Shown here piece after piece: positions 35,856 to 45,528 of a stretch of DNA of 64,000 bases. The stretch is from Streptomyces antibioticus (GTDB lineage: Bacteria; Actinomycetota; Actinomycetes; Streptomycetales; Streptomycetaceae), in contig NZ_KQ948430.1 of NCBI RefSeq assembly GCF_001514065.1, positions 181,816 through 245,815 of the forward strand. The letters are read 5' to 3'. The notes under the pieces were generated by a model. That model did not search any database. It had not been told where the DNA came from and worked only from the letters and a program-made list of their open reading frames with translations. Numbering within the stretch: the first letter of the stretch is position 1; every line of letters starts with the position of its first letter. The position numbers and the translations under genes were made by a program.

Positions 35856-36767
35856 ATGTCCAGGGCTCTTCCTAAGTACAACAAGCGCCGCGTCGCCCTC
35901 ATCGGCAGCGCCACCGCACTGGCGCTGACCGGTGCGGTGATCGCCGGTTCCGCCCTCGCCGGGGAGAGCTCCAAGAGCAGCGGCGCCACCAACGCCCGCA
36001 CCCTGGCGAGCCCCGGCACCATCAGCTGCCCGGACGTCGCCTCCAAGCTCCCCGCGATCCCCGCCTCCGCGCAGGCCGAGGTGACCCGCAACCTCACCCT
36101 CCTCCAGACCCAGATCAACGAGGCCAACAAGCGCCTCGTCGACACCGTCGGCCAGGGCGGACCCAACTTCGTCCAGAACGCCATCCTCGGCCCCCTGAAG
36201 GACAAGCGGGTCGCGACGGTCAACCGGATCGCCACCGCCATCGGACGGACCGCCGCCAAGCCCCAGGGCCTGGACGCCCTCGCGCCCTGCGCCCTGAACG
36301 CCGGCGGCGCGGCAGGGAACACGGGGAACGCCGGAAACGCAGGGAACGCGGGCAACGCAGGGAAGAACACCGGCAACGCCGGAAACGCGGGCAACGCGGG
36401 CAACGCGGGGAACGCGGGGAACGCGGGGAACGCGGGCAAGAACACCGGCAACGCCGGCGCAGGCAACGCGGCGGTCGGCACCATCAGCTGCCCGGACGTC
36501 GCGTCCAAGCTCCCCGCCGTTCCGGCCTCCGCCAAGGCCGAGGTGGACCGCAACCTCGCCCTCCTCCAGACCCAGATCAACGAGGCCAACACGCGACTGG
36601 TCAACACGGTCGGCCAGGGCGGACCCAACTTCGTCCAGAACGCCATCCTCGGCCCGCTGAAGGACAAGCGGACGTCCACCATCGACCGCATCGCCATCTC
36701 CATCGGCCGGACCGCCGCGAAGCCGCAGGGCCTGAACTCCCTGGCTGCCTGCACGCTCACCAAGTGA
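35856..36767 (+). CDS. Secreted protein: duplicated domain joined by an Asn-Ala-Gly repeat linker
   Basis: 303 aa. Signal peptide about 1-36 (RVALIGSATALALTGAVIAGSALAGE). Two copies of a ~95-residue domain, from GTISCPDVASKLPA (residues 54 and 208) through TQINEANKRLVDTVGQGGPNFVQNAILGPLKDKR-like blocks to AKPQGL, each with a Cys near either end (one likely disulfide per domain). Between them is a ~60-residue linker built of GNA/NAG triplets with two KNTG breaks. ATG 35856 has GAGG upstream. I do not recognise the family; an extracellular or cell-wall role is likely. Strong purifying similarity of the copies suggests recent duplication. Confidence 0.85.
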   Translation: MSRALPKYNKRRVALIGSATALALTGAVIAGSALAGESSKSSGATNARTLASPGTISCPDVASKLPAIPASAQAEVTRNLTLLQTQINEANKRLVDTVGQGGPNFVQNAILGPLKDKRVATVNRIATAIGRTAAKPQGLDALAPCALNAGGAAGNTGNAGNAGNAGNAGKNTGNAGNAGNAGNAGNAGNAGNAGKNTGNAGAGNAAVGTISCPDVASKLPAVPASAKAEVDRNLALLQTQINEANTRLVNTVGQGGPNFVQNAILGPLKDKRTSTIDRIAISIGRTAAKPQGLNSLAACTLTK

Positions 36768-37480: not shown

Positions 37481-38185
37481 ATGGGCTCCCCCGCCGTCGC
37501 CACGGCTCTCGTGTCCGCGTCCCTCCTCGTGCTCGGCGCCGCGCCCGCCGGTGGGCAGCCGCCGCTTCCCTTCCGGATGGCCGACGCCGGGGGCGGCACC
37601 CAGCTGATCACCGCGGTGGCTGCGAAGGCCTCCGCCACCTCCGGCACGGTCACCTGGTGGGAGCTCGACAACGGGTGGTGGGTGAAGGCCGGTTCGGCCA
37701 AGGCGCGGTTCGGGGCGAACGGCCTCGTGGAGGGTTCCGCGCGCAAGCAGGGCACGAACACGACGCCGGCAGGGTTGTACGAGCTGCCGTACGCCTTCGG
37801 CATCAAGGCCGCGCCGCGCGGGACGTCGTACAAGTACCGTCCCGTGCGCCAGAAATCGTGGTGGTGTCAGGACAACGAATCGCGGGTCTACAACCGTTGG
37901 AGCGAGCCCCGCGCCAAGGACTGCCGGGCCGGCGAGTCCGAGCATCTGATCGCGTACGAGAAGCAGTACGCGTACGCGCTGGTGATCGGGTTCAACTACG
38001 CGAAGCCGGTGCGGGGGCGGGGTGCCGGGATCTTCCTCCATGTCAACGGGAGGGGGGCGACGGCCGGTTGTGTGTCCGTGTCGGCGGACGCGATGCGCCG
38101 GATCCTGAAGTGGGCCGATCCCGGGCAGGCGCCGCACATCGCGATCGGTACGACGGGCGGGCGGACGGCGATCACCCGGTACTGA
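37481..38185 (+). CDS. L,D-transpeptidase-like (YkuD-fold) exported protein
   Basis: 234 aa with an N-terminal signal peptide (ATALVSASLLVLGAAPAGG). The catalytic motif FLHVNGRGATAGCVSVS contains the nucleophile Cys and the His of the YkuD fold, used for 3-3 cross-linking of peptidoglycan. Tyr/Trp-rich middle (WWELDNGWWVKAGSAKARFG). No strong ribosome binding site; the start at 37481 is 3 nt after the previous stop, suggesting translational re-initiation. The end overlaps the convergent kinase gene by 14 bp. Confidence 0.85.
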   Translation: MGSPAVATALVSASLLVLGAAPAGGQPPLPFRMADAGGGTQLITAVAAKASATSGTVTWWELDNGWWVKAGSAKARFGANGLVEGSARKQGTNTTPAGLYELPYAFGIKAAPRGTSYKYRPVRQKSWWCQDNESRVYNRWSEPRAKDCRAGESEHLIAYEKQYAYALVIGFNYAKPVRGRGAGIFLHVNGRGATAGCVSVSADAMRRILKWADPGQAPHIAIGTTGGRTAITRY

Positions 38186-39674
38186 GCCGGACGGTGAAGG
38201 TGGTCGAGCCCTGTGCGCTGCGCAGGCTCACCTCTCCGCCGTGTGCCTCGGCCACCGCGGCCACGATCGACAGGCCCAGGCCCGCGCCGCCGCCCGGGGC
38301 GTCGGTGCGGCGGCGGTCGGCGCGGGTGAAGCGTTCGAAGACGCCGGGCTGGATGTCCTCGGGCACGCCGGGGCCGTCGTCGTGGACCGTGAGGACGGCC
38401 GTGGCGGCCTCGACCCCGGCCTTGGACCCGGCCTTGGACCCGGCCCTGGCCTCGGTCTCCAGGGAGACCGTCACCTTGGTGCCCACAGGTGTGTGCCCAC
38501 GCGCGTTGGCCAACAGGTTGGCCAACAGCTGTTGCAGTCGGTGGGCGTCACCCGTGACCGTGACCGGTTCCTCGGGGAGTTCCAGCGTCCAGCGGTGATC
38601 GGGGCCCGCGGCCCGGGCGTCCGTCACCGCGTCCAGGACCAGCATGGTGAGGTCGACCGGGTCGCGCTCCAGGGGGCGGCCCGCGTCCAGCCGGGCCAGC
38701 AGCAGCATCTCGTCGACCATCTCGCCCATGCGGGCCGACTCGGCGGCGATGCGCTCCAGGGCCCGGGTGATCTCCGGCGGGACCGGGCCGGGGTGCAGCA
38801 GTGCCAGTTCCGCGTGGCCGCGCACCGACGCCACCGGGGTGCGCAGCTCATGGCTGGCGTCGGCGGCGAAGCTGCGCAGCCGCTCCTCGCTCGCGTGCCG
38901 CTTGGTGAGCGCGTCCTCGACATGGCCCAGCATGCGGTTGAAGGCGCCGGCGACCTGGCCGACCTCGCTGCGGGCGTCGGACTCCGGGGCCCGCGGCGGC
39001 AGCGCCACCTCGCCGCTGGCCAGCGGGAGTTCGCTGACCCGGGTGGCGGTCGCCGCGACCCGGCTCAGCGGGCGGAGCGACCAGCGCACCCAGAGCGCCC
39101 CGGCCACGCCGGTGACGGTGAGGGCGAGGCCGAAGACGATCCCGGCGAGCAGTTCGAGGCGGTGGACCGTGGCCTCGACGGGCTCCAGGGGCAGGCCGGT
39201 GATCAGGACGTCGCCGTCCTTGCCGCTCGTCACCAGCACGCGGTAGTCGTCGAGCGCCTTGAGGTCGACGGTGTGGGCCCTGCCGTCGGCCGGGATCGAG
39301 GCGAGCCGCTTCTCGTCGCCCCGGGTCAGCGAGACGTTCTCGGTGCCGCTCGGGCGGACGACCGCCGCGTGGGTGGCCGTGCCGTCGACCAGCCGGGCGC
39401 CGAAGGTGCCGGTGGCCTGGCGGCGGGTGTCGCCGCGTTCGTCGCCGTCGTGGTCGTCGGGAAGGGTTCCGTTGTGCTCCAGGCTCACCGCGAATCGGTT
39501 CCCGGCCTCGGTCAGCTGCTCGTCGAGGCGGCCGACGAGAAAGCCCTGGAGCCCGACGACGGCCGCCAGGCCGACCGCGGCACAGCTCACCGCCAGCAGG
39601 ACCACCAGGCCGCAGGTGAGCCGGGCGCGCAGGGTGTGCGGGCGGGGCAGACGGCGCAGGAGAGCGCGGGTCAC
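38172..39674 (-). CDS. Sensor histidine kinase of a two-component system
   Basis: 500 aa. Membrane helices at about 17-40 and 165-190 enclose an extracellular sensor domain; HAMP follows, then HisKA with phosphorylated His in ASHELRTPVASVRGH and HATPase motifs (LLANLLANARGHTP, DDGPGVPED, GAGLGLSIV). An inserted repeat KAGSKAG lies inside the ATPase domain. GTG 39674 overlaps the regulator stop as GTGA. Located divergent from the ferric-reductase/FMN genes, so probably controls them. Confidence 0.93.
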   Translation of the reverse strand: MTRALLRRLPRPHTLRARLTCGLVVLLAVSCAAVGLAAVVGLQGFLVGRLDEQLTEAGNRFAVSLEHNGTLPDDHDGDERGDTRRQATGTFGARLVDGTATHAAVVRPSGTENVSLTRGDEKRLASIPADGRAHTVDLKALDDYRVLVTSGKDGDVLITGLPLEPVEATVHRLELLAGIVFGLALTVTGVAGALWVRWSLRPLSRVAATATRVSELPLASGEVALPPRAPESDARSEVGQVAGAFNRMLGHVEDALTKRHASEERLRSFAADASHELRTPVASVRGHAELALLHPGPVPPEITRALERIAAESARMGEMVDEMLLLARLDAGRPLERDPVDLTMLVLDAVTDARAAGPDHRWTLELPEEPVTVTGDAHRLQQLLANLLANARGHTPVGTKVTVSLETEARAGSKAGSKAGVEAATAVLTVHDDGPGVPEDIQPGVFERFTRADRRRTDAPGGGAGLGLSIVAAVAEAHGGEVSLRSAQGSTTFTVRLSTG

Positions 39675-40411
39675 GGGGTCACCGGCTTGAGCACGTATCC
39701 GGCGCCGCGCACGGTGTGGATCATCGGCTCCCGGCCCGCGTCCACCTTCTTGCGCAGGTAGGAGATGTACAGCTCGACGACATGAGCGCGGCCGCCGAAG
39801 TCGTAGGACCACACCCGGTCGAGGATCTGGGCCTTGCTGAGCACCCGGCGCGGGTTGCGCATGAGGAAGCGGAGCAGTTCGAACTCGGTCGGGGACAGTT
39901 CGATCAGCTCACCCGCGCGGGTCACCTCGCGGGCGTCCTCGTCCATGACCAGGTCGCCGATGGTCAGCCGCGGGCCTTCCTCCAGCTGCCGGGCCATGCC
40001 GGCGCGGCGCAGCAGTCCGCGCAGCCGGGCGACGACCTCCTCCAGGCTGAAAGGCTTGGTGACGTAGTCGTCGCCGCCCGCCGTGATCCCGGCGATCCGG
40101 TCCTCGACGGCGTCCCGGGCGGTGAGGAAGAGCACGCACACGTCGGGCTTCACGGCGTGCAGGCCGCGCAGCACGGCGAAGCCGTCGGTGTCGGGCAGCA
40201 TCACGTCCAGGACGACGGCGTCGGGCAGCAGCTCGCGGGCCGCGGCGACCGCCGAGGCCCCGTCGCCGGCGGTGCGGACCTGCCAGCCCTCGTAGCGCAG
40301 GGCGCCGGACAGGACCTCGGCGAGGTCCTCGTCGTCGTCCACGACGAGGACGCGCAGCGGGGTGCCGTCGGGGCGGGCGAGGGCGGGGCGGCCGGAGCGG
40401 GTGGTGTTCAT
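39671..40411 (-). CDS. OmpR-family response regulator
   Basis: 246 aa. Receiver domain with acidic pocket VVDDDED, phosphorylated Asp in VVLDVMLPDTDG, LFLTARDAVEDRIAGITAGGDDYVTKPFS; C-terminal winged helix (ELSPTEFELLRFLMRNPRRVLSKAQIL ... HVVELYISYLRKKVD). ATG 40411 with GAAGGG upstream. First gene of the pair; repeats in its upstream region are probably its own binding sites. Confidence 0.94.
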   Translation of the reverse strand: MNTTRSGRPALARPDGTPLRVLVVDDDEDLAEVLSGALRYEGWQVRTAGDGASAVAAARELLPDAVVLDVMLPDTDGFAVLRGLHAVKPDVCVLFLTARDAVEDRIAGITAGGDDYVTKPFSLEEVVARLRGLLRRAGMARQLEEGPRLTIGDLVMDEDAREVTRAGELIELSPTEFELLRFLMRNPRRVLSKAQILDRVWSYDFGGRAHVVELYISYLRKKVDAGREPMIHTVRGAGYVLKPVTP

Positions 40412-40484
40412 GGCCCTTCACAGGTGTGGTGTGCGTGGCGCTTCCAGGATCGCCCCTGGCGGGTCACCGTCGCGCCCCCGGTTG

Positions 40485-40537
40485 CTCTGAGTTTCCTCTG
40501 AGTGCGCTCTGAGGGAGCCGCTTCAGAGGGTTCTGAG
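40485..40537. promoter_or_regulatory. Direct-repeat binding region for the response regulator
   Basis: CTCTGAG occurs at 40485, 40496 and 40507, each 11 bp apart, with a reversed copy (TTCAGAG, 40522-40528) and a further TTCTGAG at 40531. Eleven-base spacing is the helical register used by OmpR/PhoP-type dimers. The site lies between the divergent regulator gene and the oxidoreductase genes. Confidence 0.7.
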
Positions 40538-40585
40538 AAGTTCGGCCCGCACAGTGGCGTCCTGGCAGGACGAAAGGACGTACGC

Positions 40586-40615
40586 ATGACCACCCTGAAC
40601 GAGGCGTACTCATGA
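40586..40615 (+). CDS. 9-aa upstream ORF overlapping the first ferric-reductase gene
   Basis: ATG at 40586 (MTTLNEAYS, stop 40613-40615), preceded by GAAAGGACG, ends in an ATGA overlap with the start at 40612. Its start codons read the same first three codons ATG-ACC-ACC as the main gene. May couple translation; existence as a functional peptide is unproven. Confidence 0.45.
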   Translation: MTTLNEAYS

Positions 40616-41961
40616 CCACCGTGTACGAGCGGACGGCGCCGCCCGTGCCGCGCGCCGCCCCGCGCTCCCCCGCGGGCCCGCTGCTCGTCCTGCTGTGGGG
40701 CGGGGCTGCGGGCGCGGTCGCGCTGTGGTGGGCGAACACCGCTTCCGTGGTCGGGGCGGCCGGCTGGCTGACGAACGCCGGGCGGATCGCCGGGCTGCTG
40801 TGCGGGTACGCCTGTGCCGTGCTGGTCGGGCTGATGGCGCGGGTGCCGCTGCTGGAGCGCCGGATCGGCTCGGACCGGGTGGCGCGCTGGCACGCGATGG
40901 CGGGCCGCTACACGATCGGTCTGCTGGTGGCGCACATGGTGCTCATCCTGGCCGGCTACGCCGCCCAGGACGGCCAGTCGCTCTGGCACGAGACGGTGAC
41001 GGTGGTCCTCGACTACCCGGAGATGCTGAAGGCGACCGCCGGCACGCTGGTCCTCCTCGCGGTGGGTGTCACCTCGGCGCGGGCCGTGCGGCGCCGGGTC
41101 GGGCACGAGTTCTGGTACTACGTCCATCTGCTGACGTACGCGGCCGTGTTCCTGACCTTCTTCCACCAGGTCCAGCTGGGCTCCGACCTCACGGCCGGCC
41201 CGGTGCGGGCCGCCTGGTACGCGCTGTACCTGGGAGTGGCGGCGCTGGTGCTGTGGTTCCGGGTGCTCGTGCCGGTGCGGCTGAATCTGCGGCACCGGCT
41301 GCGGGTGGAGTCCGTGCACCGGGAGGCGCCGGACGTGTGGTCCGTCGTCGTGCACGGGCAGGGGCTGGAGCGACTGGGCGCCCAGGCCGGGCAGTTCTTC
41401 CGCTGGCGGTTCCTCACCCCGGGCATGTGGGGCACGTCGACGCCGTACTCTCTGTCGGCGCCGCCCCGCGGGGACCGGATGCGGATCACGGTGAAGGCGC
41501 TCGGCGACCACAGCACCGCCGTGGCGCTGCTGCGGCCCGGCACCCGGGTGTGGGCGGAGGGGCCGTACGGCGCGCTGACCGCCGAACGGCGCACCTCGCA
41601 CCGGGCGTTGCTCATCGCGGGCGGCGTCGGTGTCACCCCGCTACGGGCGCTGTTCGAGACGCTGCCGGGCGAGGTGACGCTGCTGTACCGGGCACGGACG
41701 GTCGAAGGCCTGGCGCTGGGCGGCGAGTTGGAGGCCCTGGCGCGGTGGCGCGGGGCGCGGGTGCACTACCTGCTCAACGGGCCGGACGGCGAACGTCCGC
41801 GCCTGAGCGCCGAGTTGTTGCGAGCGGCCGTACCCGAGGGGTTGGCCGGGCACGACGTGTACCTGTGCGGACCTGACGGCTTCGCCCGTGAGGTGTACGG
41901 GGCGCTGCGAGCCGCCGGGGTGCCCGACCGCCGTATCCACCACGAGTCGTTCGAGTTGTGA
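40612..41961 (+). CDS. Ferric-reductase-like transmembrane NAD(P)H oxidoreductase 1
   Basis: 449 aa. N-terminal half: six helices, heme-binding His pairs in WHAMAGRYTIGLLVAHMVL and YVHLLTYAAVFLTFFHQ (14 residues apart, two b-type hemes). C-terminal half: FAD domain (FRWRF, TPYSLSAPP) and NAD(P)H domain (GGVGVTPLRALFE, YLCGPDGFAREVY, ending RIHHESFEL). It would take electrons from NAD(P)H and pass them through hemes to the outside face. GAGG lies 7 nt before the ATG. Ends 10 nt before its FMN-protein partner. Confidence 0.9.
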   Translation: MTTVYERTAPPVPRAAPRSPAGPLLVLLWGGAAGAVALWWANTASVVGAAGWLTNAGRIAGLLCGYACAVLVGLMARVPLLERRIGSDRVARWHAMAGRYTIGLLVAHMVLILAGYAAQDGQSLWHETVTVVLDYPEMLKATAGTLVLLAVGVTSARAVRRRVGHEFWYYVHLLTYAAVFLTFFHQVQLGSDLTAGPVRAAWYALYLGVAALVLWFRVLVPVRLNLRHRLRVESVHREAPDVWSVVVHGQGLERLGAQAGQFFRWRFLTPGMWGTSTPYSLSAPPRGDRMRITVKALGDHSTAVALLRPGTRVWAEGPYGALTAERRTSHRALLIAGGVGVTPLRALFETLPGEVTLLYRARTVEGLALGGELEALARWRGARVHYLLNGPDGERPRLSAELLRAAVPEGLAGHDVYLCGPDGFAREVYGALRAAGVPDRRIHHESFEL

Positions 41962-41971
41962 GGCCACGCAC

Positions 41972-42415
41972 GTGCACGCACTGAGGAAGAACCATCCGCT
42001 GCGCCGGATCGTGCTGGCGAGCGCCGCCACCGTCTCGGGCATGGTCCTGCTGTTGTCGCTGAAGCCGCACGACACCCCGGCCGCCATAGCCGTCACGTCC
42101 CCCTCGGCGAACCCCTCCACGGCCCCCTCGGCGGCGGGGACGGGCACGTTCACCGGCGACTCGGTGCAGACCCGCTGGGGGCCCGTCCAGGTCCGGATCA
42201 CGGTCAAGGGCGGCAAGCTCACCGACGTCACGGCGGTCGCCTACCCGTCGGACAATCCGCGGGACCAGGAGATCAACAGCTACGCCCTCCCCCGGCTGCG
42301 GACCGAGGCCCTCCAGGCGCAGAGCGCGGACATCGACACGGTCTCGGGGGCCACCTACACGAGCGACGGTTACCGCCAGTCGCTCCAGTCCGCCCTCGAC
42401 TCGGCGACCGGCTGA
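41972..42415 (+). CDS. Exported FMN-binding-domain protein (one domain)
   Basis: 147 aa. N-terminal anchor with an RR-hydrophobic pattern (NHPLRRIVLASAATVSGMVLLLSL), disordered linker, then an FMN_bind domain (VRITVKGGKLTDVTAVAYPSD) with the flavinylation motif DTVSGATYTS, whose Thr takes FMN from ApbE. So it should carry covalent FMN on the outside and receive electrons from the preceding reductase. GTG 41972 with GAGG 8 nt upstream. Confidence 0.88.
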   Translation: MHALRKNHPLRRIVLASAATVSGMVLLLSLKPHDTPAAIAVTSPSANPSTAPSAAGTGTFTGDSVQTRWGPVQVRITVKGGKLTDVTAVAYPSDNPRDQEINSYALPRLRTEALQAQSADIDTVSGATYTSDGYRQSLQSALDSATG

Positions 42416-42490
42416 ACACCCAGGCGTCACGGCACGTATCTCAGGGCCAAGGGACCACGCCACCCCCCTTGCCCCGCTCCCGGAGGAATC

Positions 42491-43873
42491 GTGACCACCA
42501 CGCTCGCAGGCGGCCGCGCCGCCCGCCGCCAGACGATGCGCCGCATCCGCCCGCGCCGCTCCCCGGCCGTCCCGCTGGTGATCGCCCTATGGGCGGGCGC
42601 GGCGGCGGTGCTGTGGCTGTGGTGGGACAACACCCCCTCCCTCGCGGACAACACCGCGAAGATCCTCGCGGCGGGCCGGATCACCGGTCTCCTCGCGGGC
42701 TATCTGATGGCGCTGGTCGTCCTGCAGATGGCCCGGGTGCCGGCGCTGGAGCGGCGGGTGGGCTCGGACCGGGTCGCCCGCTGGCACGCGATGAGCGGCC
42801 GCTACACGGTGAGCCTGGTCATCGCGCACGTCTTCCTGATCACCTGGGCGTACGCGCTCCAGGCCGGCAAGTCGCTCGGCGACTTCGTGCAGCAGTTCAT
42901 GGACATGGTCACGAACCTGCCGGACATGGGCAAGGCGGCGATCGGCACCGGCCTGCTGGTGGTCATCGCGCTGCTGTCGGTCGGCGGGGTCCGGCGCAGG
43001 CTGCCGTACGACACCTGGTACCACGTCCACCTGCTCACCTACGCCGTGGTGTTCCTGACGTTCTGGCACCAGATCACCACCGGCAACGAGTTCGCCGTCC
43101 AGCCCACCGCGAAGACCTTCTGGTACGGGCTCTACGGCATCGTCACCGCGCTGGTGGTCTGGTACCGGATCCTCACCCCGCTCCGCCTCAACCTCAGGCA
43201 CCGGATGTACGTCGAGGCGGTCATCGAGGAGACGCCGGGCATCGTGTCGGTGCTGATCGGCGGGAAGAAGCTGCACCGGATGGGCGCGGAGGCCGGGCAG
43301 TTCTTCCGCTGGCGGTTCATGGCGCCCGGCATGCGGTTCAGCTCCCACCCGTACTCGCTGTCGGCCGCGCCCCGCCCGGACATGCTGCGGATCACGGTCA
43401 AGGCGATCGGCGACCACACCGCCCGGCTGCGCGAACTGCGCCCCGGCACCCGCGTGTGGGCCGAGGGCCCGTACGGCGCCCTGACCGCCCAGCGCCGCAG
43501 CCGCGGCAAGGTGCTGCTGGTGGCGGGCGGCGTCGGCATCACGCCGATGCGGGCGCTGTTCGAGACGCTGCCCGGGGCGTCCGGTGACATCACCCTGCTC
43601 TACCGGGCCAACAGCACCCAGGACCTGGCGCTGTGGGACGAGCTGGCCACCATCGCCGACGAGCGGGGCGCCCGGCTGATGTACGCGGTCAACAGTCCGG
43701 ACGGCGAGCGGCCCGACATCTCGGCGGAGCGGCTGCGGCAGAAGCTGCCGGACATCGACGACCACGACGTGTTCCTGTGCGGGCCGCCCGGCTTCGCACA
43801 GTCCGTGTACGACTCGCTGCGCGACGCGGGCGTGCCGGCCCGCCGTATCCATCACGAGTCGTTCGAGATGTGA
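42491..43873 (+). CDS. Ferric-reductase-like transmembrane NAD(P)H oxidoreductase 2
   Basis: 460-aa paralogue of the first reductase with the same layout: heme His in WHAMSGRYTVSLVIAHVFL and YHVHLLTYAVVFLTFWHQ, FAD motif HPYSLSAAPRPD, NAD(P)H motif GGVGITPMRALFE, end RIHHESFEM. GTG 42491 preceded by GGAGG. The two reductases are clearly a duplication, as are their FMN partners. Confidence 0.9.
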   Translation: MTTTLAGGRAARRQTMRRIRPRRSPAVPLVIALWAGAAAVLWLWWDNTPSLADNTAKILAAGRITGLLAGYLMALVVLQMARVPALERRVGSDRVARWHAMSGRYTVSLVIAHVFLITWAYALQAGKSLGDFVQQFMDMVTNLPDMGKAAIGTGLLVVIALLSVGGVRRRLPYDTWYHVHLLTYAVVFLTFWHQITTGNEFAVQPTAKTFWYGLYGIVTALVVWYRILTPLRLNLRHRMYVEAVIEETPGIVSVLIGGKKLHRMGAEAGQFFRWRFMAPGMRFSSHPYSLSAAPRPDMLRITVKAIGDHTARLRELRPGTRVWAEGPYGALTAQRRSRGKVLLVAGGVGITPMRALFETLPGASGDITLLYRANSTQDLALWDELATIADERGARLMYAVNSPDGERPDISAERLRQKLPDIDDHDVFLCGPPGFAQSVYDSLRDAGVPARRIHHESFEM

Positions 43874-43952
43874 GCCACGCTCCCGCACACACGTCACATC
43901 ACGGCCCCTCAACTCTGCTCGGCAGCCCCAGACTTCAGGAGTTCATTCAGCC

Positions 43953-44735
43953 ATGAGGAAGAGTCATCCGATCCGGCGTGTCGTCCTGGCCGGCGCCGCC
44001 ACCGTCTCCGGGATCGTGCTGCTGCTGTCGCTGAAGCCGGCGTCCGACCCGGCCTCCGCGTCCGCGGCGGGCGGGGCGGTCCCGCCGGCCGCCGCCCAGG
44101 AGTCGGCGCAGGGCGGGGCGCAGGCGGCGGGGCAGAGCACGTCCACCGGGGACGCCGCGCAGACCCAGTACGGTGCCGTCCAGGTACGCATCACCGTCGT
44201 CGGCAACAAGATCACCAAATCGGAGGCGGTGCAGGCGCCGCAGGGCGGGACCAGCACCCAGAAGACCGAACTGGCCGTCCCCAAGCTCAACGCGGCGGTG
44301 GTCGCCAAACAGAGCCCCGACATCGACACCGTGTCGGGGGCGACGTACACGAGCGAGGGCTACAAGAAGTCCCTCCAGTCGGCGATCGACAAGGCGAACG
44401 CCGCCGCCTCGGCCGCCCAGCCCTCGCAGGGCGCGTCGGCCCCCGCCCAGGGTGCCGCCGCCTCCAAGACCCTCACGGGCACGGTCGCGCAGACCCAGTA
44501 CGGCCCGGTCCAGGTCCGCATCACGGTCAGCAACGGCAAGATCACCAAGGCCGAGGCGGTCCAGGCGCCCCAGGGCGGGACCAGCACCCAGAAGACCGAG
44601 CTGGCCGTGCCGAAGCTCAACGCGGCGGCGGTGGCGGCCGGCAGCGCGGACATCGACTCGGTGTCCGGGGCCACCTACACCAGCGCGGGCTACAAGAAGT
44701 CCCTCCAGTCGGCGCTGGACCAGGCCGGTGGCTGA
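43953..44735 (+). CDS. Exported protein with two tandem FMN-binding domains
   Basis: 260 aa: anchor SHPIRRVVLAGAATVSGIVLLLSL as in the single-domain paralogue, then two FMN_bind domains (about 75-150 and 180-258), each with its own flavinylation motif (DTVSGATYTS and DSVSGATYTS). The repeats are nearly identical (QYG.VQVRIT.., KTELAVPKLNAA). It could hold two covalent FMN, giving a relay. ATG 43953 with CAGGAG. The stop overlaps the ApbE start. Confidence 0.9.
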   Translation: MRKSHPIRRVVLAGAATVSGIVLLLSLKPASDPASASAAGGAVPPAAAQESAQGGAQAAGQSTSTGDAAQTQYGAVQVRITVVGNKITKSEAVQAPQGGTSTQKTELAVPKLNAAVVAKQSPDIDTVSGATYTSEGYKKSLQSAIDKANAAASAAQPSQGASAPAQGAAASKTLTGTVAQTQYGPVQVRITVSNGKITKAEAVQAPQGGTSTQKTELAVPKLNAAAVAAGSADIDSVSGATYTSAGYKKSLQSALDQAGG

Positions 44736-45528
44736 CACCGTGGCCGAGTCGGCAGATGCTCCCGCCGCGGTACGTCATGCGGAGGAGGTCATGGGGACCG
44801 TCTTCTCCTTCGACGTCCGCGGCGGGGACCCCGATGCCGTCCAGGCGGCACTGGCGGAGGCGGTGGCCGGGCTGCACCGGGTCGACGCCGTCTTCAGCAC
44901 GTACCGCGAGAACAGCCAGATCTCCCGGCTGGCCCGCGACGAGCTGACGGTGGCGGAGTGCGACCCCGAGGTCGCCGAGGTCCTCGAGCTGGGAGCGGAG
45001 GCCGAACGCACCAGCGACGGCTGGTTCAGCCTCCGCTACGAGGGCCGCCTCGACCCGACGGGCATCGTCAAGGGCTGGGCGGTGGAGCGCGCGGCCAGAC
45101 AACTGCTCAGGGCGGGCGCGACCGGGGTCAGCCTCAACGGCGGCGGGGACGTGCAGTTGCTCGGCACGCCGGGGCCGCAGCGCCCGTGGCGGGTGGGGGT
45201 CGCCGATCCGCTGCGGCCGGGGGGTCTGGCGGCGGTGGTGTCAGCGGCGGGCACGAGCGAGCTGGCCGTGGCGACCTCCGGCACGGCAGAACGCGGCGCC
45301 CACATCGTCGACCCCCGCACCGGCCGCTCCGCGGTGACGGACCTGGTCGCCGTGACGGTGGTGACCCCCAGCGTCACCTGGGCGGACTGCTGGGCGACGG
45401 CGGCGTTCGCGATGGGTTCGCGGGAGGGGTTGCGGTGGCTGGAATCACTGCCGGACGTGGAGGCGCTGCTGATCACGGCGGGCGATGAGGTCAGGTGCAC
45501 AGGGGGCTTGGCTTCAAGACTCGGGTGA
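44728..45528 (+). CDS. apbE: FAD:protein FMN transferase (ApbE) without signal peptide
   Basis: 266 aa. Motifs: EVMGTVFSFDVRG, DPTGIVKGWAVERA, SLNGGGDVQLLG, ATSGTAERGAHIVDPRTG, TWADCWATAAFAMG (Mg-ligand Asp/Thr). It moves FMN from FAD to Thr/Ser in the SGAT motif of FMN_bind proteins, here both neighbours. Typical ApbE is exported, but this one has no signal or lipobox. GTG 44728 overlaps the previous stop by 8 nt; GTG 44740 is another option. Confidence 0.9.
   Translation: MADTVAESADAPAAVRHAEEVMGTVFSFDVRGGDPDAVQAALAEAVAGLHRVDAVFSTYRENSQISRLARDELTVAECDPEVAEVLELGAEAERTSDGWFSLRYEGRLDPTGIVKGWAVERAARQLLRAGATGVSLNGGGDVQLLGTPGPQRPWRVGVADPLRPGGLAAVVSAAGTSELAVATSGTAERGAHIVDPRTGRSAVTDLVAVTVVTPSVTWADCWATAAFAMGSREGLRWLESLPDVEALLITAGDEVRCTGGLASRLG

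Follow-up and report, generated by a model that had tools for sequence, protein, structure and literature searches.

A doubled MsrQ-like flavinylation cluster of Streptomyces antibioticus with two-component genes and an ApbE lacking a recognisable export signal

Introduction

MsrQ-like flavinylation clusters, 1797 of which were counted in 1468 genomes, encode a PF01794 protein and are broadly conserved in Actinobacteria (PMC8238504). They typically also contain apbE and an FMN_bind gene, and 1437 of them feature a NAD-binding domain (PMC8238504). Here, we report the computational analysis of such a cluster in a 64,000-nt stretch of DNA from Streptomyces antibioticus (GCF_001514065.1, contig NZ_KQ948430.1, forward-strand positions 181,816-245,815), in the following referred to as the window. 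The cluster encodes a sensor histidine kinase (HK), an OmpR-type response regulator (RR), two ferric-reductase/NOX-like membrane proteins (FRD1 and FRD2), two predicted carriers of covalent flavin mononucleotide (FMN1 and FMN2) and a flavin transferase of the ApbE type. We favour the view that it belongs to the MsrQ-like flavinylation systems of Actinobacteria, as a doubled member under two-component control.

The cluster resembles the published ones in combining a PF01794 protein that has a C-terminal NAD-binding domain with FMN_bind domains and apbE in an actinobacterium, but it differs from them by its two reductases, its two-component module with a box of its own and its signal-less ApbE, features that go unmentioned in the survey's sections on such clusters (PMC8238504). 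Having a second FMN protein does not by itself set the cluster apart, because a multi-flavinylated protein is accompanied by further FMN_bind proteins in 157 published clusters (PMC8238504). The protein SaFMN3 of Streptomyces azureus contained three covalent FMNs when purified and had a midpoint potential of -184 mV, and one of its domains was crystallised (PDB 8P2A; PMC10339131). SaFMN3 and FMN2 share homologous FMN_bind repeats, an FMN attachment site at the Thr of the SGAT motif, an N-terminal membrane segment and a flanking flavin transferase gene; however, SaFMN3 has three domains, whereas the window FMN2 has two, and it is the short form of the locus (see below) in which three domains are most often found. 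The FmnB/PplA/EetB system of Listeria, in which an ApbE outside the cell is supplied with exported flavin adenine dinucleotide (FAD) (PMC9973259), likewise uses an ApbE-type enzyme and a flavinylated surface protein to let electrons leave the cell, but the window instead encodes heme reductases and a signal-less ApbE. With the NOX/ferric reductase superfamily, FRD1 and FRD2 have in common four heme-ligating His residues, in pairs 14 and 13 residues apart, and FAD/NAD motifs, the difference being their coupling to partner proteins predicted to carry covalent FMN. The initial annotation of this DNA had considered the system a candidate for one undescribed in this genus. Since both the MsrQ-like class (PMC8238504) and SaFMN3 (PMC10339131) have been reported, this claim is not supported, and the cluster is a variant of a described kind.

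Results

The cluster occupies positions 38172-45528, with HK and RR on the minus strand divergent from FRD1-FMN1-FRD2-FMN2-ApbE on the plus strand. A check of the coordinates returned the gene order and strands of the initial annotation, and the domains it had named were recovered when nine proteins were scanned against Pfam and scores were judged by the curated cut-offs. HK (38172-39674) contains HAMP, HisKA and HATPase_c domains above these cut-offs, and RR (39671-40411) has Response_reg (91.3 bits) and Trans_reg_C (93 bits) domains, and none of its 25 listed NCBIfam matches reaches the respective cut-off. Both FRD1 (40612-41961) and FRD2 (42491-43873) are recognised as Ferric_reduct proteins (59.7 and 65.1 bits; PF01794, cut-off 28) with an NAD_binding_1 domain above cut-off (31.7 and 42.5 bits). 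FAD_binding_8 is recognised in FRD2 only (27.7 bits), the P-Y-S and GxGxTP residues being common to both reductases in an alignment. FMN1 (41972-42415) has an FMN_bind domain in a single stretch (43.1 bits) with one SGATYTS motif, and FMN2 (43953-44735) has two such stretches (71.3 bits) with one motif each. ApbE (44728-45528) scores 161.3 bits with PF02424 and matches solved ApbE structures at E 3.5e-16. The start codons of HK, FMN1, FRD2 and ApbE were chosen among in-frame GTG codons, and the HK sequence scanned began two codons inward.

The genome (99.98% complete, 29 contigs) contains five FMN_bind domains and two ApbE genes, all of them in two clusters. The second cluster (C7 ~467-472 kb; L010 7230-12321) has RR-HK divergent from FRD-FMN-ApbE, with two FMN_bind domains in its FMN protein, and represents a second type in Streptomyces. 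Relatives of the window cluster were collected by a scan with its ApbE, which gave at least 467 confirmed matches; the best 80 were kept, 79 titled Streptomyces and one 'Actinobacteria bacterium'. As argR is in view in 77 of these 80 loci, with the other three ending near ApbE, we refer to them as the argR locus. For the class as a whole, 80 places were fetched via an FMN_bind match, a sample of our own choice from incomplete lists that is uneven over families.

The FRD-linked ApbEs lack a recognisable export signal and appear to remain in the cytosol, a point on which the initial annotation had not remarked. Starting with MADTVAESADAPAAVRHAEEVMGTVF, the window ApbE has neither a signal peptide nor a lipobox that we could recognise. 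The test applied considered up to 60 residues before the domain and searched them for an uncharged 14-residue window with a mean hydropathy of at least 1.5, as well as for a lipobox pattern. By this measure, a hydrophobic N-terminal window or lipobox was found in 0/78 ApbEs of the Streptomyces argR locus, 0/9 judgeable of 10 ApbEs of the second type and 0/48 judgeable of 49 ApbEs from other Actinomycetes, that is, in none of the 135 judgeable among 137 FRD-linked ApbEs. Two fragments (L190 of the second type and L151 from the other Actinomycetes) have an N-terminus that cannot be judged, and five loci with no FRD in view (L036, L040, L056, L168 and L170) were excluded from the count. Nine further Streptomyces ApbEs (L195-L203) also gave no signal by hydropathy or lipobox. 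As a control, seven ApbEs from loci outside the class that have no FRD were examined in the same way: a strong segment was detected in six of them and a lipobox in the remaining one, which is truncated at the end of its contig. Two other ApbEs from outside the class, encoded beside an FMN_bind gene (L222 and L223), showed neither segment nor lipobox. Moreover, in L067, L075 and L083, an in-frame stop codon lies immediately upstream of the short N-terminus of ApbE. Because neither of the two ApbEs of the genome has a signal recognisable by hydropathy or lipobox, flavin attachment would be a cytosolic step, barring an unrecognised exit route for ApbE. We therefore think that attachment probably precedes export, with the flavoprotein leaving the cytosol already loaded. 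In the passages considered from the flavinylation literature (PMC8238504, PMC11334425, PMC12052999, PMC9973259 and PMC10339131), we encountered no mention of signal-less ApbEs of actinobacterial MsrQ-like clusters.

The flavin carriers themselves have features of exported proteins. The second domain of FMN2 matches the SaFMN3 domain (8P2A) at E 1.3e-36 and FMN1 does so at E 1e-24, and for SaFMN3 a published predictor run gave a secretion signal and a membrane segment (PMC10339131). The hydrophobic N-terminal segments of FMN1 and FMN2 fit a signal peptide by hydropathy. Their N-termini, which include HPLRRIVL and HPIRRVVL, respectively, follow the form HPxRRxVLAxAATVSGxVLLLSLKP. The TatP-like pattern RR.[FGAVML][LITMVF] denotes a signal of the twin-arginine translocation (Tat) pathway. 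It occurs in 104/104 scored of 111 FMN open reading frames (ORFs) of the argR locus, and in each of these 104 the charge that follows the hydrophobic run first is a Lys, both features being in keeping with Tat. The seven unscored ORFs are five pieces of split FMN2 genes (L022, L032, L047 twice and L072), one whose N-terminus lies in another frame (L080) and one stray short match (L028). According to the positive-inside rule, positive charges before a hydrophobic run stay inside; with the twin Arg directly preceding this run in 104/104 cases, the FMN domain would thus lie outside. Tat export is likely for the argR-locus branch in view of these twin-arginine N-termini, with dependence on TatC as a prediction, but it fits the window type only.

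The reductases combine predicted heme sites with a history of duplication within the genus. The predicted heme-ligating His pairs, which the initial annotation had noted and which correspond to H99/H113 and H180/H193 in FRD2, are invariant in 30/30 aligned Streptomyces reductases. In a wider alignment of 185 rows (188 hits from the fetched loci, with three of at most 350 residues omitted), the four His residues are retained in all rows, suggesting two heme-binding sites in each protein; GxG in the NAD site and CG in the CGP motif are likewise present throughout. FRD1 is 58% identical to FRD2, and in a quick tree of 120 reductases the two form sister clades inside Streptomyces (support 99 each, 100 joint), as expected from a Streptomyces-specific duplication and in keeping with the doubled set noted initially. 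This topology led us to reject FRD1 as an acquired gene. One row labelled single in the tree (L194) is an FRD1 whose neighbours lie beyond the fetched stretch. The next group, with a weak support of 84, consists of six rows with one reductase each, of which four (L128, L137, L141 and L143) have a divergent RR beside the reductase. The simplest history would be an ancestral sensor with one reductase set, followed by a tandem duplication and then by repeated loss of the sensor-FRD1-FMN1 portion.

In Streptomyces, the argR locus comes in two forms. The five-gene order together with the two-component genes was sought in relatives, as the initial annotation had proposed, and found in 23 of the 80, far beyond chance. 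Among the 68 checkable loci (FRD2 present and at least 4.5 kb before it; identity thresholds >70% for HK and >80% for RR), HK, RR, FRD1 and FMN1 are all present in 23 and all absent in 45, and not a single locus has only part of them. The remaining 12 of the 80 comprise three with FRD1 and FMN1 that end before the two-component genes, six with the core only on short contigs, and three that do not reach FRD2. HK-RR-FRD1-FMN1 is thus an all-or-none module in the checkable loci. The initial claim of a dedicated sensor stands in so far as HK and RR accompany FRD1-FMN1 and a near-unique box (see below); they are not tied to the FRD2-FMN2-ApbE core, which has no matching HK or RR in 45/68 checkable loci. 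Two loci (L032 and L071) have a remote HK and RR (32-37% identical) past argR. The short form consists of FRD2-FMN2-ApbE, often right after a YkuD gene, which in many cases is co-oriented with FRD2 and precedes it by ~100 bp.

The two forms also vary in the FMN_bind domain number of FMN2, as counted in the window, its 80 relatives and nine further loci, minus three incomplete ones. FMN2 has two domains in 28/30 long-form loci, one domain and three domains occurring once each. In the short form, three domains are found in 39/57 loci and two in 15, and one, four and five domains occur once each. Four split FMN2 genes were summed for this count, and two loci beginning at FRD2 (L042 and L079) are of uncertain form. 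As the relatives are not independent, this relationship is an association only. FMN2 has five FMN_bind domains in L062 (8317-10005) and four in L024 (8617-9999), so that domain number seems to change readily within the genus. In five genomes (L022, L032, L047, L072 and L080), FMN2 is broken into two or three frames; an assembly error is likely because of the repeats, with L022 also containing a run of N, while real decay is possible.

The gap between RR and FRD1 contains a predicted RR box at 40485-40513 on the plus strand, composed of three CTCTGAG repeats with 11-bp spacing. A second predicted box lies in the opposite orientation on the FRD1 side (40522-40539, minus strand; TTCAGAG-N4-CTGAGAA on the plus strand), with many invariant columns among 18 aligned regions. 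At up to two mismatches, the window has four box matches, two of them being the same places on the other strand, as compared with a mean of 0.57 and never four in 100 shuffles. The entire 10.1-Mb genome contains three matches at up to one mismatch, two of them in the RR-FRD1 gap, and none to a reversed control pattern. Allowing for small variations, the repeat pair is present in 18 of 24 RR-FRD1 gaps (window plus 23 loci). Outside Streptomyces, the box recurs unchanged in L137 and nearly so in L141 and L143. The third match in the genome (C10:82675) is the palindrome-like sequence CTCTGAGAGCGCTCTCAG, situated ~80 bp before a protease-like gene, which may encode a secreted serine protease to judge from its ORF. 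With the narrow box model used, we thus found no support for a wider RR regulon, as this site looks like that of another regulator.

In having 7-bp repeats with a 4-bp spacer, the box resembles the direct repeats bound by PhoP of Mycobacterium tuberculosis (PMC4832192). It differs in its word, CTCTGAG, and RR, as mentioned, stays below the NCBIfam cut-offs. A literature search with this word returned nothing relevant among the matches listed. An assignment of RR/HK to a known Streptomyces two-component system found no support in a review of the S. coelicolor systems, whose main text contains none of the terms FMN, ferric and flavin (PMC9739842), with no sequence comparison to the named S. coelicolor systems having been made.

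The second cluster has a kinase whose sensor region is unlike that of the window HK. Some of its relatives show an 11-bp repeat of another kind, whose core is CGACAG and which is present as exact 7-mers in L185, L186, L188, L190 and L191 and absent in this exact form from L010 itself, L184, L192 and L193. Given the unlike sensor regions and the different repeats, each of the two clusters seems to own its switch. Across the class, FRD and FMN_bind occur together in 76 of the 80 places, with ApbE also in view in 67 of these 76 and a divergent RR adjoining the reductase in 23. In several others, RR lies further away or downstream on the same strand.

The sensor region of HK, predicted to lie outside, comprises ~130 residues and includes an acidic/His-rich stretch. 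This stretch, DDHDGDERGDTR in the window, is mostly kept in 22 aligned sequences and partly retained in L128, L141 and L143, all outside Streptomyces; it may be considered a candidate metal site. Next to the cluster, a YkuD (L,D-transpeptidase-like) gene (37481-38185) converges with HK in the long form, and the protein encoded at 35856-36767 looks secreted and is made up of two similar domains, with Asn-Ala-Gly repeats as the linker between them.

Discussion

We consider it rather probable that the cluster encodes a doubled MsrQ-like system with cytosolic flavinylation, a Tat route for its carriers and a two-component switch. According to this proposal, FRD1 and FRD2 would carry electrons from cytosolic NAD(P)H via FAD and two hemes across the membrane, a route that the initial annotation had put forward and that, although itself inferred, is implied by the domains and matches the published MsrQ-like model. 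Electrons would then reach FMN bound covalently to FMN1 (one flavin) and FMN2 (two flavins), both anchored in the membrane. These proteins may deliver the electrons to an external acceptor, for which oxygen, a quinone-like metabolite and an oxidised metal are the likeliest candidates. ApbE would attach FMN, most likely in the cytosol as the site of FAD synthesis, and the loaded flavoproteins would be exported next, with Tat as the likely route for FMN1 and FMN2 in this branch. HK may sense a signal from outside, upon which RR would switch its own genes and FRD1-FMN1-FRD2-FMN2-ApbE, as a putative single operon, via the CTCTGAG repeats.

Alternatively, the reductases could act as stand-alone NADPH oxidases or ferric/cupric reductases, with the FMN proteins as side carriers or oxygen scavengers. 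We regard this scheme as unlikely. FRD2 does match 8qt6, which we take to be the Streptococcus NOX, and its kin at E 5e-14, with NOX/DUOX chains being weaker. In addition, the reaction of reduced SaFMN3 with oxygen proceeds at a rate of 1.2 per second (PMC10339131). However, the joint occurrence of FRD and FMN_bind in 76/80 places suggests that this kind of reductase is bound to an FMN carrier, even if the places were picked by FMN_bind. Still less likely is the textbook arrangement, in which ApbE would leave by an unrecognised route and act outside the membrane on exported FAD: it agrees with the description of electron-export ApbEs as extracytosolic (PMC9973259, PMC12052999), but the 135/135 judgeable FRD-linked ApbEs lack a recognisable signal (no search for a FAD exporter was made), and a longer form of ApbE is impossible in L067, L075 and L083 because of the stop before its N-terminus. 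Cytosolic ApbEs are known from Klebsiella, in the case of a cytosolic fumarate reductase, and from eukaryotes (PMC12052999). Tat substrates receive their cofactor inside the cell, and the export of FAD is required for ApbEs that are extracytosolic (PMC9973259). FMN domains facing the cytosol, which the apparently cytosolic ApbE would suit as in the Klebsiella case, are improbable in view of the twin Arg before the hydrophobic run and of the secretion signal predicted for SaFMN3 (PMC10339131).

Several observations weigh against the proposed mechanism. The 78 ApbEs of the argR locus are 81-94% identical to the window query and hence not independent, and a hydropathy window is the basis of all export calls. 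The authors of the SaFMN3 study take their proteins as in line with extracellular flavin transferases (PMC10339131). Tat export as a general feature of the class had to be rejected, since its pattern is present in only 17/52 scored FMN N-termini of other Actinomycetes (8 ORFs unscored), several of which carry KK or no pair. Even in the same genome, the second cluster has KR instead of twin Arg, and KR is found in 9/11 second-type proteins, the other two being scored as RR through residues further upstream. As twin arginines are not general, Tat may not be the route following a cytosolic ApbE throughout the class. With regard to regulation, the CTCTGAG box is a predicted target of RR, one repeat deviates in 6/24 RR-FRD1 gaps, and outside Streptomyces a divergent RR adjoins the reductase in only 10/56 places. 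Finally, our data lend no support to a particular acceptor or to a pairing of FRD1 with FMN1 and FRD2 with FMN2.

As for the role of the system, literature searches did not return a physiological function for an MsrQ-like system in Streptomyces. Iron-related links have been described for MsrQ-like clusters bearing VIT1 (PMC8238504) and for sifE of Bifidobacterium (PMC5449479); since none of the nine scanned proteins is a transporter, iron uptake is only a possibility.

Beyond this locus, we suggest, tentatively and with slightly less than even confidence, that actinomycetes may flavinylate their carriers inside and export them FMN-loaded, through Tat in the argR-locus branch, with no need for a FAD exporter, and that the private switch of the doubled form may target only this operon. 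If true, loading inside and exporting the finished protein would be a simple and testable alternative to FAD export of the Listeria type. In addition, the sensor module, with its all-or-none occurrence and a box that is nearly unique in the genome, provides a handle on the stimulus and thereby on the acceptor.

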